Below are positions 43,511-51,620 of a DNA stretch of 64,000 nucleotides, one piece after another. The position numbers and the translations under genes are program-made. The notes under the pieces are model-generated. The model was not told the origin of the DNA, did no database searches, and worked only from the letters and a program-made list of their open reading frames with translations. Source of the DNA: Methylocystis sp. B8 (GTDB taxonomy: Bacteria > Pseudomonadota > Alphaproteobacteria > Rhizobiales > Beijerinckiaceae); NCBI RefSeq assembly GCF_005771425.1, contig NZ_VBTZ01000002.1:1-64000 (forward strand). The letters run 5' to 3'. The first letter of the stretch is position 1. The number at the start of each line of letters is the position of its first letter.

Positions 43511-44277
43511 ACGAGATCGTAGCTATTGACTGGCGCGAGGCTGCGCCGCTCACCCGCAACGAATTCGAAACCGCGATCCGCGCCGTCGGCGCAGAGCGCT
43601 ATCACGACAAGCACGAGTTCCATAAGCTGCTGCACGGCGGCAAGCTCAAGAAGGAGCAGGTCGCCGCCTGGGCGCTTAACCGTTATTGTTACCAGGAGGC
43701 GGTGCCGCGCAAGGACGCCGCCTTTATGAGCCGCGTCCATGACCGCGAACTGCGTCGCGAATGGATACATCGCATCCATGATCACGATGGACTGGGCGAA
43801 GAAGGCGGCGGCATCGAGCGCTGGCTGGTTTTGACCGATGCGCTCGGCTTCTCGCGCGACTACGTCACCTCTCGCCGCGGCGCCCTGCCCGCGACCAAAT
43901 TCGCTGTCGAAGCCTATGTGCGCTACGTCGTCGAGCAGCCGCTCACAGTCGCGGTCGCGTCTTCGCTGACCGAACTCTTCGCGCCGTCGATCCACCGTGA
44001 ACGCATCGCCGGAATGCTCGAAAACTACGATTTCGTCGACGACCATGTGATGGCCTATTTCAAGCGCCGGCTGACCCAGGCGCCGCGCGATTCCGAATTT
44101 GCGCTCGGCTATGTGCTCGACAACGCCAAAACCCGCGCCGAACAGGAGGCCTGCGTCGGCGCCGTTCGGTTCAAATGCGACGTCTTGTGGGCGCAGCTCG
44201 ACGCATTACATCACGCCTACGTCACGCCCGGACTGATCCCGCCCGGCGCCTGGCGGCCAGGGGAAACAAATGTCTGA
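43507..44277 (+). CDS. pqqC: Pyrroloquinoline-quinone synthase PqqC
   Basis: 256 residues from a GTG overlapping the pqqB stop. Cofactor-free oxidase that closes the ring and carries out the final eight-electron oxidation. YHDKHEFHKLLHGGKL, WALNRYCYQEAVPRKDAAF, RIHDHDG and LTELFAPSIHRERI are the helical-bundle motifs with active-site His, Lys, Arg and Tyr. It is not fused to PqqD, unlike the Methylobacterium version. It overlaps the next gene by eight bases. Confidence 0.95.
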   Translation: MNEIVAIDWREAAPLTRNEFETAIRAVGAERYHDKHEFHKLLHGGKLKKEQVAAWALNRYCYQEAVPRKDAAFMSRVHDRELRREWIHRIHDHDGLGEEGGGIERWLVLTDALGFSRDYVTSRRGALPATKFAVEAYVRYVVEQPLTVAVASSLTELFAPSIHRERIAGMLENYDFVDDHVMAYFKRRLTQAPRDSEFALGYVLDNAKTRAEQEACVGAVRFKCDVLWAQLDALHHAYVTPGLIPPGAWRPGETNV

Positions 44278-45742
44278 GGCGCACGCCGCGCGGTTCGTGA
44301 TCGGCCTTGACTCGCGTCCGGCCTTCACGCGTTACGCGCGGCTGCACGAAGACCGCGCGCGGTCCCGAACGGTCATTCTCGCGCCCGAGCGCGCCTATGA
44401 GCTCGATCCGATTGGGCTCATCGTTCTGCGCGCGATCGACGGCGTAACGCGCGTCGCCGATCTTTGTGCGCGGCTTGCGCAGCAATATGCGGCGCCGATC
44501 GAAATCATCACGCGCGACGTCACGACGCTGTTGCAAGGGCTCGCGGACAAACGGCTGCTGCGCGACGGGCCGGATGAGTATTCGGCGCCCGCGCCTTCGG
44601 CCTTCGCGAGTTCAATCGCGCCATTTGCGGGCGGGCCCGCGGGACTGCTCGCCGAACTCACCCATCGCTGCCCGCTGCAATGTCCCTATTGTTCCAATCC
44701 GCTTGAACTCGAGCGCTCGAACGTTGAGCTCACCGCCGACGAATGGGGCGAAACTTTTCGTCAGGCGGCGTCGATCGGCGCACTGCAGCTGCATCTTTCC
44801 GGCGGCGAACCGACCGCACGACGCGATCTTGAAGAAATACTGGCGCATGCGGTCGACGCGGGCCTCTACACCAATCTCGTCACCTCCGCCGTACTGCTCA
44901 CGCGCGAGCGCTTGCAGCGTCTCGCCGAGATCGGCCTCGATCACGTGCAGGTTTCCATACAGGATGTCGTTCCAGAGAGCGCTGACCGCATCTCAGGCTA
45001 TCAGGATGGCGTCGCCAAAAAGCGCGACGTCGCGCGCTGGACGCGCGAATTCGGCATGGGATTGACGATCAACGCGCCAATGCACCGGCAGAACATCGCG
45101 CATCTGCCGCAGATCATCGATTTCGCCGTCGAGGTCGACGCGCAGCGCATCGAGATCGCGCATATTCAATATTACGCCTGGGCGCAGATGAATCGCGCGG
45201 CGCTCATTCCGACGCGCGAAGCCTTCATGGAAACGGTCGGAATCGTGGATGAGGCAAAGAAGCGTCTCGCCGGCGTGTTGAATTTTGATTTCGTCATCCA
45301 CGACCATTACGCAAAGCGACCGAAGGCCTGCACGGGCGGCTGGGGCCGATCAATCATGGCGGTGACGCCGTCAGGCAAGGCCCTGCCCTGCCACGCGGCG
45401 CAGACCTTGCCGGGACTGACCTTCGACGACGTGCGCGAGAAACCGCTCGGCGACATCTGGCGGCTTGGCGCGGCGTTCAACGCGTTCCGCGGCACGGAGT
45501 GGATGAAGGAGCCTTGCCGTTCCTGCGACCGCCGCGAAATCGATTTCGGCGGCTGCCGCTGCCAGGCTTTCGCGATCGCCGGCGACGCGACAGCGACGGA
45601 CCCCGCCTGCCATCTCTCTCCTGACCATGCGCGCTTCGCCGCTTACGCGGAAGTCGAATCGCACGCGCCCGCGCCGGACTTCATCTACCGCCGTTATGGC
45701 GGCGCCGCGGCGTCAACGGCGCGCGCCAAAGAGCCGGCGTAA
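44270..45742 (+). CDS. pqqDE: PqqD-PqqE fusion protein
   Basis: 490 residues. Residues 15-100 are PqqD (RYARLHEDRARSRTVILAPE, ALDPIG-like LDPIGLIVLRAIDG), the chaperone that binds PqqA. From about 125 comes PqqE, a radical SAM enzyme with CPLQCPYC (Cys134, 138, 141) that makes the Glu-Tyr carbon bond in PqqA. The C-terminal SPASM clusters show in CTGGWGRS, LPCHAA and CRSCDRREIDFGGCRC. A linker rich in Ala/Pro joins the halves. Fusion places chaperone and enzyme in fixed ratio. AGGGGAAACAA precedes ATG. Confidence 0.93.
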   Translation: MSEAHAARFVIGLDSRPAFTRYARLHEDRARSRTVILAPERAYELDPIGLIVLRAIDGVTRVADLCARLAQQYAAPIEIITRDVTTLLQGLADKRLLRDGPDEYSAPAPSAFASSIAPFAGGPAGLLAELTHRCPLQCPYCSNPLELERSNVELTADEWGETFRQAASIGALQLHLSGGEPTARRDLEEILAHAVDAGLYTNLVTSAVLLTRERLQRLAEIGLDHVQVSIQDVVPESADRISGYQDGVAKKRDVARWTREFGMGLTINAPMHRQNIAHLPQIIDFAVEVDAQRIEIAHIQYYAWAQMNRAALIPTREAFMETVGIVDEAKKRLAGVLNFDFVIHDHYAKRPKACTGGWGRSIMAVTPSGKALPCHAAQTLPGLTFDDVREKPLGDIWRLGAAFNAFRGTEWMKEPCRSCDRREIDFGGCRCQAFAIAGDATATDPACHLSPDHARFAAYAEVESHAPAPDFIYRRYGGAAASTARAKEPA

Positions 45743-46322: not shown

Positions 46323-46434
46323 AGCGCTTCCCGATCACATGGAATCATGTGATCGATAAGGAATCGCTCAAAATCAGAATGTTGGAGCAGGTTCTCATCG
46401 AAAAAGACTGTCAACTTTTTCGGAACCCGCTCTA
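46320..46434. repeat. Repeat element with terminal inverted TAGAGCG ends
   Basis: 115 bases bounded by TAGAGCG (46320-46326) and CGCTCTA (46428-46434). Inside are two hairpins: a perfect 9-bp stem GATCACATG/CATGTGATC with loop GAAT (46333-46354) and GAAAAAG/CTTTTTC (46400-46421). The wording matches small non-coding repeats that I associate with intergenic regions of Rhizobiales. The left end supplies the stop codon of fliJ, the right end the stop of the opposite-strand gene. Confidence 0.75.
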
Positions 46435-47010
46435 AAGCCCGAGCAGCCGCCAGCGCAGCCTGCCTCGAGGCGGGCGCACCCAAACGCCGAAGGTTTTCTT
46501 GCGAACGGCATTGACCTCTTCGCCTCTGGCGAGAGCGTTGGCGACTGAGGCGACGTCGAAGTCGAACCGTCGGAAAAAAAGCGTTGCGCCGGAACGTCCC
46601 GCATCGATGAAGGCGAGCTCGAAACGCGCGAGATCGGCAAGCCAAGGCGGCTCCAGCCGCCGGCAGGCAATACGCGTGTCGATGAGCGCGGCGAACGCCG
46701 CGGCGTCTGTGCGATGTTTCTTGTCTCGTGCGACGCCGCGGATCGTCTCGCGCAGAAGCGGGTTGAATCGATCTCCCAATGCCTGCGCGGTGAGTGGCAG
46801 CGCTTTGCGCGCATAGAGCGCGCGCTTGCCAATCAGGCTCTGCGCAAAGGCTTCCATTTCGCGCCGATCGATCGAAACGAGGCTCTGCGTTTCATGCATG
46901 CTTAGACCGAACCGCGGCGCCACGGCGATCGGCGACTCGAAAAATTCGCGGCGTAAATCTTCGTCGGTGAAGAGGCGCGCCAACAGCGCCTGCGTCTCAG
47001 CTAACGCCAT
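46432..47010 (-). CDS. Partner protein of the MNIO enzyme (SCO6045-like)
   Basis: 192 residues. The N-terminal 60 (LLARLFTDEDLRREFFESP, then FGLSMHETQSLVSIDRREME) looks like the small helical modules found in RiPP precursors and partners. The rest is an alpha/beta domain without catalytic motifs, ending in a basic tail. MNIO enzymes usually act with a second protein that recognises the substrate; position and size suggest this role. It overlaps the MNIO stop by ten bases. It could be the SCO6045-like family, but I am not certain of the name. The stop codon comes from the adjoining repeat element. Confidence 0.6.
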   Translation of the reverse strand: MALAETQALLARLFTDEDLRREFFESPIAVAPRFGLSMHETQSLVSIDRREMEAFAQSLIGKRALYARKALPLTAQALGDRFNPLLRETIRGVARDKKHRTDAAAFAALIDTRIACRRLEPPWLADLARFELAFIDAGRSGATLFFRRFDFDVASVANALARGEEVNAVRKKTFGVWVRPPRGRLRWRLLGL

Positions 47011-47837
47011 CGTCCGTTCTCGACCATCGTCATGCGCGCCCGCGCCACTTCGTCAATTAATTCGCTGAACGGCGGAATCCTTTCATCCCGCTCCAGAACG
47101 ACGGCTTTGACCGGCGCGTGCGCGACGACGCGATCATGGAGCGTCCAAACCGCTTCGCTCGTCGCAGCATCATGGCTATCGATCAGCACGCCATTGCGCT
47201 CGCGTCCTCCCGCGTAATGCATTTGCACGAGCCTGTCCCAGGGCCAGCATTCGAACTCACCTTCGGGGCCCATGCCGAAATTCATCGCATTCACATGCAT
47301 GTTGGCGACGTCGCACAGCCATCCGCAACCTGTCGCTTCCAGCGTCCGCGACAGAAATTCAGGCTCGTCCATCTCGCCGCCAGGAATGCGCACGACGCAA
47401 GTGATGTTTTCCAGGATCAGCGGCGTCTTGATGCGCCTGCGCACGAATTCAACGTTGCGCGCGACGACGTCGATCGCTTCCTGCGTATAAGGCAGCGACG
47501 CCAGATGGCCGATACACACGCCGCCAGCGCGCGTGAAGCACAAATGCTCGCTCCACCAGGGCGGATCGATGCGCTCGATCAGCGCCGCCACTTTATCGAG
47601 ATAACGGGAATCAACGCCCTCTGCGCTACCGATCGACAGATCGAGCCCATGCGCAACGAGTGGAAAATGCGATTTTAGAAGCTCGAGCTCGTCGAGCTTT
47701 TCTTTCGATGCGTCGAGATAATGATCGGCGATGATCTCAACGAAATCGATTTGATCCCGATGAGCGAAGAGATCGGCGCGAAATTGCGGGCGATAACCGA
47801 TACCCGATCCGAGAGCCGGCGCGTCAATCGCCGCCAC
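47001..47837 (-). CDS. Multinuclear non-haem iron oxidase (MNIO, DUF692)
   Basis: 278 residues from a GTG that lies 14 bases inside the previous gene, with GGAG six bases upstream; longer in-frame starts have no support. A TIM-barrel enzyme of the DUF692 family (MbnB, TglH, bufferin BufB), which uses two or three irons and O2 to rebuild cysteine residues in peptides. Ligand blocks in order: AHGLDLSIGS (His63), WWSEHLCF (Glu97, His98), LILENI (Glu143, Asn144), CDVANMHVNA (Asp176, His181), MHYAGG (His207), SHDAATSE, and VVLERDE (Glu249). It is not MbnB: no methanobactin peptide is nearby. Likely substrate is the tail of the preceding membrane protein. Confidence 0.85.
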   Translation of the reverse strand: MAAIDAPALGSGIGYRPQFRADLFAHRDQIDFVEIIADHYLDASKEKLDELELLKSHFPLVAHGLDLSIGSAEGVDSRYLDKVAALIERIDPPWWSEHLCFTRAGGVCIGHLASLPYTQEAIDVVARNVEFVRRRIKTPLILENITCVVRIPGGEMDEPEFLSRTLEATGCGWLCDVANMHVNAMNFGMGPEGEFECWPWDRLVQMHYAGGRERNGVLIDSHDAATSEAVWTLHDRVVAHAPVKAVVLERDERIPPFSELIDEVARARMTMVENGRWR

Positions 47838-48741
47838 CGCTCGCTCCGCCGTCGCCGCAACTGCCGCCGCAACTCGTTCCGCAATCGGAGCCAGCGCTTC
47901 CCGAGCCGCGGCTGAAAGCTTCGGCGAACATCGCCTCAGTCGTGCCTTTAAGCGGCGAGAATCCGTAGAGGCCAATGAGAAACAGCGCGGCGCCGCCGAA
48001 GGCGCGCGCCTCCGGTCCGGGCGACCCAATGTGACCGATCGCTTCCTTCAAACGGCCGCCGTAGGCAAGCCGCATCGCTTCGAGATAGGCGTGGCCGCGA
48101 CGGCTCGCATGCGTTCTCGTCAGCACATAGGCGAGCGCAAAAAGAACGGCGGCGGACGCAGCGGCGAGAAAGACGAGGTAGGCGACGTTCGCCGAACCCT
48201 TCTCCCATTCGACATAGATCTTCGCAAGCGCCAGACCGACGATGATCAGCATTCCACCGATCTGCGCGCGGCGGCGCCAGATCTTCATGGACTGAGGCTT
48301 GATCAGCTCCTCCTCCGCGAGTTTGGCGCGGAGCGGCGCAATCAACTCCAGTAACCGCCGCCGCAGGCTGTGATCTTCGAAGAGCTTATGCGCCTTCGGC
48401 TTCGCCTGCACAGCTTCGAGCAGGCGCGTTTCCATAGCGTTCAGCTCGCCCGGCTGCGGCTGCTTTTCTGTGGGGACAACGTGATCCTCAGGGGCAAGAG
48501 CGACGAAGCCGCGCTGCGCAAGATCATAGACCAGCGTTCGAATGACCTGATTGACCCCGCCTTGCAGGAAGGCGACCTCCATCGCATCCGGGTTCTGCGG
48601 CACAGGCGGCGGCGGACGGCGGTCCGTACGGTCCGCGAGGCGGATGCAGAGATAAGCCCCCGCCAGCACGATGATGACGACGAGGCCGAAGAAATTGAGA
48701 AATTCTGGCCCGGGAAGATTGAGGAGAGGAATATTCTGCAC
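47824..48741 (-). CDS. TIGR04222-type membrane protein with cysteine-glycine tail
   Basis: 305 residues from a GTG (AAGG nine bases before), nine bases after the ctaA stop. One membrane helix at 15-35 (FFGLVVIIVLAGAYLCI), a soluble winged-helix-like region (VNQVIRTLVYDLAQRGFVAL), two close helices near 160-210, and a final hydrophobic segment ALFLIGLYGFS. The end is SAGSDCGTSCGGSCGDGG, with Cys287, 291 and 295 in a regular CGxS spacing. Such tails in TIGR04222 proteins accompany MNIO genes and are the presumed site of modification. Function unknown. Confidence 0.75.
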   Translation of the reverse strand: MQNIPLLNLPGPEFLNFFGLVVIIVLAGAYLCIRLADRTDRRPPPPVPQNPDAMEVAFLQGGVNQVIRTLVYDLAQRGFVALAPEDHVVPTEKQPQPGELNAMETRLLEAVQAKPKAHKLFEDHSLRRRLLELIAPLRAKLAEEELIKPQSMKIWRRRAQIGGMLIIVGLALAKIYVEWEKGSANVAYLVFLAAASAAVLFALAYVLTRTHASRRGHAYLEAMRLAYGGRLKEAIGHIGSPGPEARAFGGAALFLIGLYGFSPLKGTTEAMFAEAFSRGSGSAGSDCGTSCGGSCGDGGASGGGD

Positions 48742-48750
48742 GCCGTCGCC

Positions 48751-49863
48751 TTAGTGCGTAACCATGTCTTGCGCAAGGCGTCGAGCCTGCAGGGTCGCAA
48801 CCGCCAAGACCGCCATGCCGATCGCCTGATGCGCGAGCGCTAGCGCCAAATGCGGCGTGCCGGCGAAAGGCGGCTCGACCAGCACCAATGTTGCGATTCC
48901 AAGCGCGATCTGCATGAGCACATGGCCGAACAGGATCCCGGCGCCGCGTCGCGCGCGCCCTTCCGCGTTCATCCATGCATCCAGAAGATGCGCCAGCGCC
49001 AAAGCAAAGATCACATAGGCGATCATGCGGTGAAAGAATTGAACAGTGACAGGATTATCGACGAGGTTCTTCCAGACAGGCTCCAATCGCCACAAGACGT
49101 CGGCCGGCGGGATGAATGCGCCGTCCATCAGCGGCCAGGTGTTGTCGATGAGCCCCGCCCGCAATCCGGCGACGAGGCCGCCGGCGAAAATCTGCAGGAA
49201 AACGAAAGCGAGGATCGTCAGCGCCACGGCCTTCAATCTGCCTGCGCCCTCATGCACGAGAGAGACGGCGCGCGGGCCCAAGCCGCCAGCCACCCATAAA
49301 CAGGCGGAAAAGATCAATGCCGCAAGCAACAGATGAATCGCGAGGCGCTCCTGCGCCACCTCGATGCGATTGACGAGTCCGGAGGCGACCATCCACCAGC
49401 CGACGCCCCCCTGAAGGGCGCCGAGCGCAAGAACGCCGAGAAGCTTCGGCTTCACCGGGCGCGGCAGGCGGCCAGTCGCCCAAAACCAGACGAGCGGAAC
49501 CGCGAAAACGACGCCGATCAGGCGTCCGAGAAGGCGGTGCGCCCATTCCCAGGCGTAGATGTATTTGAACCCGGAGAGATCCATGTCCGGGAACAGTTCC
49601 TTATACTGCGGGATCTGCTTGTATTCTTCGAACGCCTCCTGCCACTCCTGCTGCGAGAGCGGCGGGAGCACGCCGGTAACCGGCTTCCACTGCACGATGG
49701 AGAGGCCTGATTCGGTCAGCCGTGTCGCGCCGCCGACGATGACCATGAGAAAGACCAGCGCCGCGACGACCCACAGCCAATTGCGCACCGCGATCGCGTT
49801 CGCTTCGGTCGCGTGGTGCCTAATTGCCGGGACTGGATGGGGAAAGTGCAGCCAATCTTCCAT
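48751..49863 (-). CDS. ctaA: Haem A synthase
   Basis: 370 residues, eight membrane helices in two similar halves. Oxidises the haem O methyl group to make haem A for aa3-type cytochrome oxidase. RNWLWVVAALVFLMVIVGGATRLTESGLS, shown here as VIVGGATRLTESGLSIVQWK, is the conserved opening, with haem-ligand histidines in WEWAHRLLGR, IHLLLAALIF, FFHRMIAY and LALAHQAIG. The start MEDWLHFPHPVPA is preferred; a GTG at 49929 would add 22 residues. It opens a probable four-gene operon with the MNIO unit. Confidence 0.93.
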   Translation of the reverse strand: MEDWLHFPHPVPAIRHHATEANAIAVRNWLWVVAALVFLMVIVGGATRLTESGLSIVQWKPVTGVLPPLSQQEWQEAFEEYKQIPQYKELFPDMDLSGFKYIYAWEWAHRLLGRLIGVVFAVPLVWFWATGRLPRPVKPKLLGVLALGALQGGVGWWMVASGLVNRIEVAQERLAIHLLLAALIFSACLWVAGGLGPRAVSLVHEGAGRLKAVALTILAFVFLQIFAGGLVAGLRAGLIDNTWPLMDGAFIPPADVLWRLEPVWKNLVDNPVTVQFFHRMIAYVIFALALAHLLDAWMNAEGRARRGAGILFGHVLMQIALGIATLVLVEPPFAGTPHLALALAHQAIGMAVLAVATLQARRLAQDMVTH

Positions 49864-50024
49864 GAGACGCCGGGGGTTGGGACGCGGAGGACGGCGGCCA
49901 GTTAAGGGATGCGGCCATCGCTTGTCCACACCTTGGAGCCGGCGCTCTAACCGAGGCCCGATTTTGGGCTGAAAAGAGCGACGCAGCGGATGTAAGAATA
50001 GAGTCGCTTGAGTCGAGGAATCAG

Positions 50025-51293: not shown

Positions 51294-51620
51294 ATGCGGA
51301 ATACCAAACCTATCTTCATTTCTTTCGCTCTCGCCGGCTGCTTCGCGACCACCGTCCCCGCGTTCGCATTGCCGACTACGCAATCGCCAGCCACGGATGC
51401 GCAAATTGAGTTTGCCAGCGGCGGTCTTCAGCGCTGCTGGATAGTGGAGACCCCATGGGGACCGCAGCGTCGCTGCCGCGGCGGTGGTTGGGGAGGTTAC
51501 GAGGGCCGGGGCGGTTATGGGGGTCATGACGGCAATGGCGGCTGGGGCGGCGGTTATGGGGGCTGGAGTGGCGGCGGGTATGGCTATCGACGACACGGCG
51601 ACTGGGACGATCGAGACTAA
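51294..51620 (+). CDS. Small exported glycine-rich protein
   Basis: 108 residues: a signal peptide (MRNTKPIFISFALAGC, cleaved near AFA), a short segment with RCWIVETPWGPQRRC, then a long Gly/Trp/Tyr/His-rich tail (GGYEGRGGYGGHDGNGG and similar). Two cysteines flank the Pro-Trp-Gly core, and the tail probably is unfolded or surface-exposed. AGGAG lies ten bases before ATG. It resembles short Gly-rich exported proteins common in Rhizobiales; no function known. It lies within the tRNA-Pro island remnant. Confidence 0.6.
   Translation: MRNTKPIFISFALAGCFATTVPAFALPTTQSPATDAQIEFASGGLQRCWIVETPWGPQRRCRGGGWGGYEGRGGYGGHDGNGGWGGGYGGWSGGGYGYRRHGDWDDRD

Follow-up and report, generated by a model that had tools for sequence, protein, structure and literature searches.

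A three-gene module shared by Methylocystis and cyanobacteria in which an MNIO enzyme probably modifies the cysteine tail of a TIGR04222 membrane protein

We analyzed a 64,000-nucleotide stretch of Methylocystis sp. B8 (contig NZ_VBTZ01000002.1, positions 1 to 64,000; hereafter the window), in which four closely packed genes on the minus strand encode haem A synthase, a TIGR04222-type membrane protein, an enzyme of the MNIO (DUF692) family and a small protein that is its partner. The haem A synthase gene ctaA lies at 48751..49929, with a GTG start at 49929 (another possible start is the ATG at 49863, giving 370 residues), and its product scores 340.4 bits against PF02628 COX15-CtaA (cut-off 29.9) and 326 bits against NF045570, below the equivalog cut-off of 550 for the latter. 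After a gap of 9 bases comes the gene for the 305-residue membrane protein (47824..48741; GTG start; TIGR04222 88.9 bits, cut-off 43), which overlaps by 14 bases the gene for the 278-residue MNIO (47001..47837; GTG start; PF05114 271.8 bits, cut-off 25); this in turn overlaps by 10 bases the gene for the 192-residue partner (46432..47010). An original prediction, made from the letters of the window, had named the ctaA, TIGR04222 and MNIO families and given these spacings; the distances are exact, and the PF02628, TIGR04222 and PF05114 models each score above their cut-offs. It had also placed three cysteines of the membrane protein in exact four-residue steps, and the C-terminal end, SDCGTSCGGSCGDGGASGGGD, does carry C287, C291 and C295 at that spacing. 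These cysteines (in CGTSCGGSCG) belong to a disordered tail, residues 279-305 (47827..47907, minus strand), supported by pLDDT values below 50 in an AlphaFold 2 (AF2) model, by alignment and by our table of tails.

The MNIO has eight positions (H62, H97, E142, D175, H206, D219, H221 and E248, counted from the residue after the start) that are invariant in 8 aligned sequences and line up by eye with the 3bww, TglH and MbnB chains; we take these His, Asp and Glu residues to be the iron ligands. Its best NCBIfam match is BufB (NF050167), at 232.4 bits and below the equivalog cut-off of 310, and its score against MbnB (TIGR04159) is 55.4 bits, below the equivalog cut-off of 325. The partner is predicted to fold like TglI: the top Foldseek match of its AF2 model (mean pLDDT 87.0) is chain A of the TglHI structure 8hi7 (E 8.0e-5, probability 1.00, TM 0.65 by query length), a 269-residue chain that we infer to be TglI because the DUF692 chain has 304 residues. 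A profile of the partner also matches, at 81.8% probability over 74 columns, three proteins whose genes follow other MNIO genes; DUF2063 is confirmed in two of the three. No Pfam family matched the partner up to E 1, hence no PF09836 (DUF2063) signature of PME-type 1 was found, a signature that both DUF2063 partners encoded at other sites of the window genome do show; the profile scan gave no MbnC match, and searches of the partner and membrane protein sequences against the PDB returned nothing useful. By its predicted model, the partner therefore falls within PME-type 2, a class whose members resemble TglI or NGO1945 in structure and lack the DUF2063 signature (Antoine 2025, PMC12452194). The N-terminal 60 residues resemble the leader-like Os17/NHLP domain (NF038399), with scores of 34.6, 22.1, 27.1 and 17.2 bits in four partners, all below 40.

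The membrane protein was detected in 31 of 61 genomes searched, all 31 being among the 37 of the same genus, and Methylocystis rosea, M. silviterrae and M. suflitae are among the named relatives with the same module. We examined 30 loci of this Methylocystis group (L and G numbers denote loci and genomes), leaving out G028, where a run of N lies inside the membrane protein gene. The MNIO and partner genes follow the membrane protein in 25 of the 30, with an MNIO-partner overlap of 10 bases in 25/25 (starts chosen by script). All 24 readable tails of these loci contain CGxSC and then a third cysteine four residues on; the tail of L021, which has a frame shift near residue 255 and a tail frame visible by tblastn only, is excluded from the tail counts. 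The layout is not due to chance, given that the ctaA position, the tail motif and the overlap are conserved across Methylocystis-group loci. In the other five loci (L028, L031-L034), no MNIO or partner follows and the protein stops early with 0 or 1 cysteine, the motif being absent from all five. Close MNIO homologues (at least 73% identity) occur in exactly 25 of the 37 genus genomes, each adjoining the membrane protein; a search for the MNIO gave no match in four of the tail-less genomes, and in the fifth, G010, a 33% match only. The partner is present in 27 of 39 genus genomes and in none of the tail-less or TIGR04222-free genomes; for G1472 and G1473 the analysis covered the partner alone, which both have.

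In a tree of the TIGR04222 proteins, the tail-less members form one clade inside the tailed ones (100/99); in a ctaA tree (a ctaA match is absent in G012, G020 and G034), G010 stands apart from the other tail-less genomes with weak support (84/85). Because the tail-less clade is nested among tailed proteins, the joint absence of enzyme and tail suggests one or two loss events. The body of the membrane protein has a ratio of nonsynonymous to synonymous substitution rates (dN/dS) of ~0.15 in two tail-less pairs and of 0.11-0.21 in five tailed pairs, and is kept under purifying selection after tail loss.

A pattern scan for the MNIO across 84,980 species, which demanded exact short peptides and may miss other relatives, returned 21 loci, 17 of the Methylocystis group and 4 from cyanobacteria (51-54% identity). 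All four cyanobacterial loci keep the gene order of the module, the membrane protein being followed by the MNIO and then the partner. The other MNIOs of the window genome are more distant from the module enzyme than these are (32-34% identity, and 25% for its MbnB). Among 339 cyanobacterial genomes surveyed, TIGR04222 occurs in 17 (16 above the cut-off) and an adjacent MNIO and partner in six (L128, L141, L142, L143, L144 and L147); with L125-L127 these make nine distinct loci, L128 being the Nostoc of L124. The MNIO tree unites Methylocystis and cyanobacterial enzymes against only 5 other MNIOs (98/97), and the TIGR04222 tree likewise groups the two sets of modules (98/92), with long branches meeting. 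Membrane protein, MNIO and partner make up one module common to the Methylocystis group and cyanobacteria, a grouping that is new here, and horizontal transfer probably accounts for its sharing between the two lineages.

Elsewhere, TIGR04222 above its cut-off is rare in samples of Pseudomonadota genomes, which overlap and contain genomes of the genus: 9 of 397 for the order, 1 of 385 for the class and 14 of 398 for the phylum. By profile, an MNIO was found in 0 of 17 TIGR04222 regions outside the genus, these regions being 4.6-17 kb long, some of them ended by the contig, and whole genomes not being searched. A search of viral contigs for the module MNIO found no relative, and a plasmid search returned 354 records, all below 60% identity, of which Azospirillum L133 has the appearance of a bufferin-type operon.

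The tails of MNIO-linked membrane proteins share a further signature. Counted over the last 60 residues, Ser-Cys pairs number 2-4 in 24/24 Methylocystis tails and 3-7 in the 9/9 cyanobacterial tails with an MNIO, and at least two pairs are found in 33/33 MNIO-linked tails versus 3 of 24 relatives without an MNIO found nearby. The tails of these relatives mostly end CGGCGG, and 21 of the 24 hold at most one pair; the table leaves out L139, L151 and L051, and also L069, L070 and L072, for which the script picked no open frame, as well as the weak matches L052-L062. We also counted MNIOs in 16 of the 17 cyanobacterial TIGR04222 genomes (L148 and L150 are one genome; G1130-G1133 lie outside the count). 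The 5/5 module genomes tested carry exactly one MNIO, beside a Ser-Cys tail, and where TIGR04222 stands without an MNIO next to it (11/11 genomes), the genome as a whole gave no MNIO match.

The original prediction took the tail to be the likeliest MNIO target, and the evidence supports it, the motif occurring in 24/24 tails with the enzyme and 0/5 without. Because enzyme and tail are present and absent together, the tail bears the Ser-Cys signature and the partner is TglI-like, the membrane-protein tail is probably the MNIO substrate. Alternatively, it could be an unmodified metal-binding or disordered tail of Cys, Ser and Gly, with the MNIO modifying an unlinked peptide. Cysteines are indeed often found in TIGR04222 proteins without an MNIO nearby, usually as CGGCGG, and in three cases as Ser-Cys tails; but the joint presence and absence of enzyme, partner and tail in the genus speaks against this alternative, as does the module MNIO being the sole one in the five cyanobacterial genomes. 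Further, no small open reading frame bearing cysteines (20-120 residues, at least 2 Cys) was found in the operon outside its known genes. We regard an unlinked substrate as improbable.

Taken as a whole, a three-gene module for post-translational modification is the explanation we favor, and we consider it likely. Several observations weigh against it. Three Ser-Cys tails occur in genomes without any MNIO match (L137, with 2 pairs; L140, with 2; and L149, with 4, the TIGR04222 match of the last lying under the cut-off). More than a quarter of TIGR04222 proteins have no C-proximal cysteines, and 490 of 1372 TIGR04222 genomes have no MNIO (PMC12452194). The 30 Methylocystis-group loci are not 30 independent tests, loss being one event by the TIGR04222 tree or two by the weak ctaA branch, and among the tail-less genomes G013 (81%) and G015 (73%) are incomplete. 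The body survives without tail and enzyme, and the modification would therefore be dispensable in those lineages. The exact four-residue step, fixed in Methylocystis, is not kept in cyanobacterial L142, L144 and L147. The original prediction would have been undermined by an MNIO kept beside a cysteine-free tail; this combination is seen in 0 of the 33 tails that could be read in the subfamily made up of Methylocystis and cyanobacterial members but does occur at one distant locus, the Streptomyces plasmid L132, where an MNIO and a related partner (partner profile 9e-8) come before a TIGR04222 protein (120.4 bits) whose tail is free of cysteines. Its gene order differs, and it may represent a different subclass or act on another substrate.

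Because the module lies in an apparent operon with ctaA, the original prediction tentatively linked it to cytochrome oxidase or to copper or iron handling at the membrane. In a competing explanation of this kind, a haem A or cytochrome oxidase module, the modified tail would serve copper or haem insertion into aa3 oxidase. Within the Methylocystis group the association is close: ctaA precedes the membrane protein gene at 29 of 30 loci (at the 30th, L033, the contig ends), and in 24 of the 25 loci with the full triad the gap measures 3-16 bases, the value for the 25th (L026) being a start-choice artefact with ctaA in place. A distant tail-less TIGR04222 gene (55.7 bits; L051 1447-3707, L089) in G123, a genome of the same order, is divergent beside a COX1 gene (362 bits). 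The persistence of ctaA beside the tail-less membrane protein, at gaps of 11-87 bases and in the 4/4 tail-less loci long enough, can be counted for a tie to ctaA, but it equally shows ctaA in place where tail and enzyme are gone. The adjacency is moreover not kept outside the group. When whole genomes were searched with PF02628, the 9/9 cyanobacterial genomes with the module had their ctaA either on a different contig or at a distance of 322-943 kb, and TIGR04222 and ctaA were likewise apart in 16/16 other Pseudomonadota genomes in which both gave a match; in one, G954, ctaA gave none. A tblastn search with the window ctaA found none in 10 cyanobacterial regions, although this query could miss a divergent ctaA, its control being a close relative. 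COX1 appears in only 1 of 67 stretches screened, that of G123, which is one case in another subfamily and leaves our assessment of the ctaA link unchanged. On the far side of the module, a FliJ-like gene (29.5 bits, below the cut-off of 50.45) is as fixed as ctaA, in 15/15 module loci reaching that far, and in G007 (L091) and G035 (L106) ctaA adjoins the FliJ-like gene with no module between. The cytochrome oxidase proposal is thus most unlikely, and a functional link to ctaA of any kind is very doubtful. Genomic position is the best explanation of the adjacency, with co-transcription still likely; ctaA is a neighbor and does not belong to the module in the form that cyanobacteria conserve.

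We also considered on which side of the membrane the tail would lie. The AF2 model of the membrane protein (mean pLDDT 79.4) has three long membrane helices and the disordered tail, and a home-made hydropathy script finds the same three helices in 16/16 sequences; the protein is also predicted to have a cytosolic domain. A fold search with the model returned no PDB structure at an E value of 0.001 or lower. The three helices, and the positive charges carried by loops 36-157 and 209-247, point to an N-out, C-in protein, so that, as modeled from the script and the AF2 structure, the tail is probably on the cytosolic side, where the MNIO and partner would be. Against this placement, the tails of other TIGR04222 members are predicted to be periplasmic (PMC12452194), and the tail studied here could likewise be periplasmic; its modification would then precede or accompany export, and the tail would function outside, as a bufferin does. 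A marginal fourth hydrophobic stretch (247-265) in 13 of 16 sequences would suit that arrangement, but this stretch is only a 10-residue helix (250-259) in the model and was not found in L125-L127, and the loop charges favor C-in. We think a periplasmic tail unlikely, though it is the strongest of the competing proposals.

In the mechanism that we propose, the TIGR04222 protein would be anchored in the inner membrane by its three helices with the tail most likely cytosolic, and the MNIO and its TglI-like partner would bind this tail. Cysteines in Ser-Cys pairs would then be oxidized, C291 and C295 first and C287 perhaps, to MNIO-type groups such as thiooxazoles, yielding a membrane-anchored metal ligand. 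Copper seems the most plausible metal, but we name it only tentatively. In Methylocystis the module, sitting between ctaA and the FliJ-like gene, would probably be co-transcribed with ctaA. In a more specific and speculative version, which we rate as distinctly unlikely, the membrane protein would be inserted first, and the enzyme pair would then work on its tail from the cytosolic side to make a membrane-anchored heterocyclic metal ligand; the N-terminal helices of the partner, which weakly resemble RiPP leader domains, would serve as a leader in trans, with leader and core on different proteins.

Each of the known MNIO systems resembles the module in part. The cysteine on which TglH acts is the C-terminal residue of a small peptide, whereas the cysteines here are internal to a membrane-protein tail; TglH-TglI (PDB 8hi7) nonetheless also pairs an MNIO with a partner of similar predicted fold. 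In the bufferin system (BufA/BufB/BufC), as here, cysteines are the likely targets, and BufB is the best match of the module MNIO; however, that score is under the cut-off, no small precursor gene was seen in the operon, and the partner is without the DUF2063 signature. Methanobactin synthesis (MbnABC) likewise uses an MNIO, and MbnB, MbnC and a candidate MbnA-like sequence are present in the same genome, but the module MNIO scores far under the MbnB cut-off and the partner has no MbnC match. The pairing of TIGR04222 with MNIO is itself already in print, subsets of TIGR04222 proteins having been predicted as MNIO substrates (Antoine 2025, PMC12452194). The clusters described there are alike in combining a TIGR04222 protein with C-proximal cysteines, an adjacent MNIO and, in some, a PME-type 2 partner. 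The main text of that paper makes no mention of Methylocystis, cyanobacteria or ctaA; what is different here is a distinct module, the Ser-Cys signature, the joint loss and the proposal of a cytosolic tail.

MNIO enzymes are known to act on small peptides; a membrane-protein tail as substrate has been predicted, and we found no demonstration of one in the literature searched. The prediction is directly testable, since the module is compact, Methylocystis can be cultured, some relatives naturally lack the enzyme, the target residues are clearly predicted and the partner is TglI-like, and methane oxidizers are a setting in which copper handling matters.

The window genome (3.4 Mb) contains four MNIO genes: that of the module, two followed by DUF2063 partners, and one in a methanobactin set (L102, L103 and L104 for the latter three, which lie on other contigs). 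One of the DUF2063-paired MNIOs adjoins a weak BufA2-like precursor (21.9 bits, cut-off 60). The methanobactin set comprises MbnB, MbnC and a small sequence ending RCASTCAATNG, with cysteines four apart, which we presume to be MbnA-like. In one Methylocystaceae metagenome-assembled genome (L119/L021), a frame shift makes a single open frame of the membrane protein and MNIO genes, through either assembly error or decay. The TIGR04222 protein of Nostoc linckia (L124 4898-5839) matches DUF2207_C at 25.1 bits (below the cut-off of 33), hinting at a possible kinship of the two membrane families. Within the window, a small glycine-rich protein with a signal-like start is encoded at 51294-51620 (GRP family, 21.6 bits, below the cut-off of 30), and a radical SAM protein with PqqD and SPASM domains is encoded at 44270-45742; among 17 module loci, 14 have it close to the FliJ-like gene.

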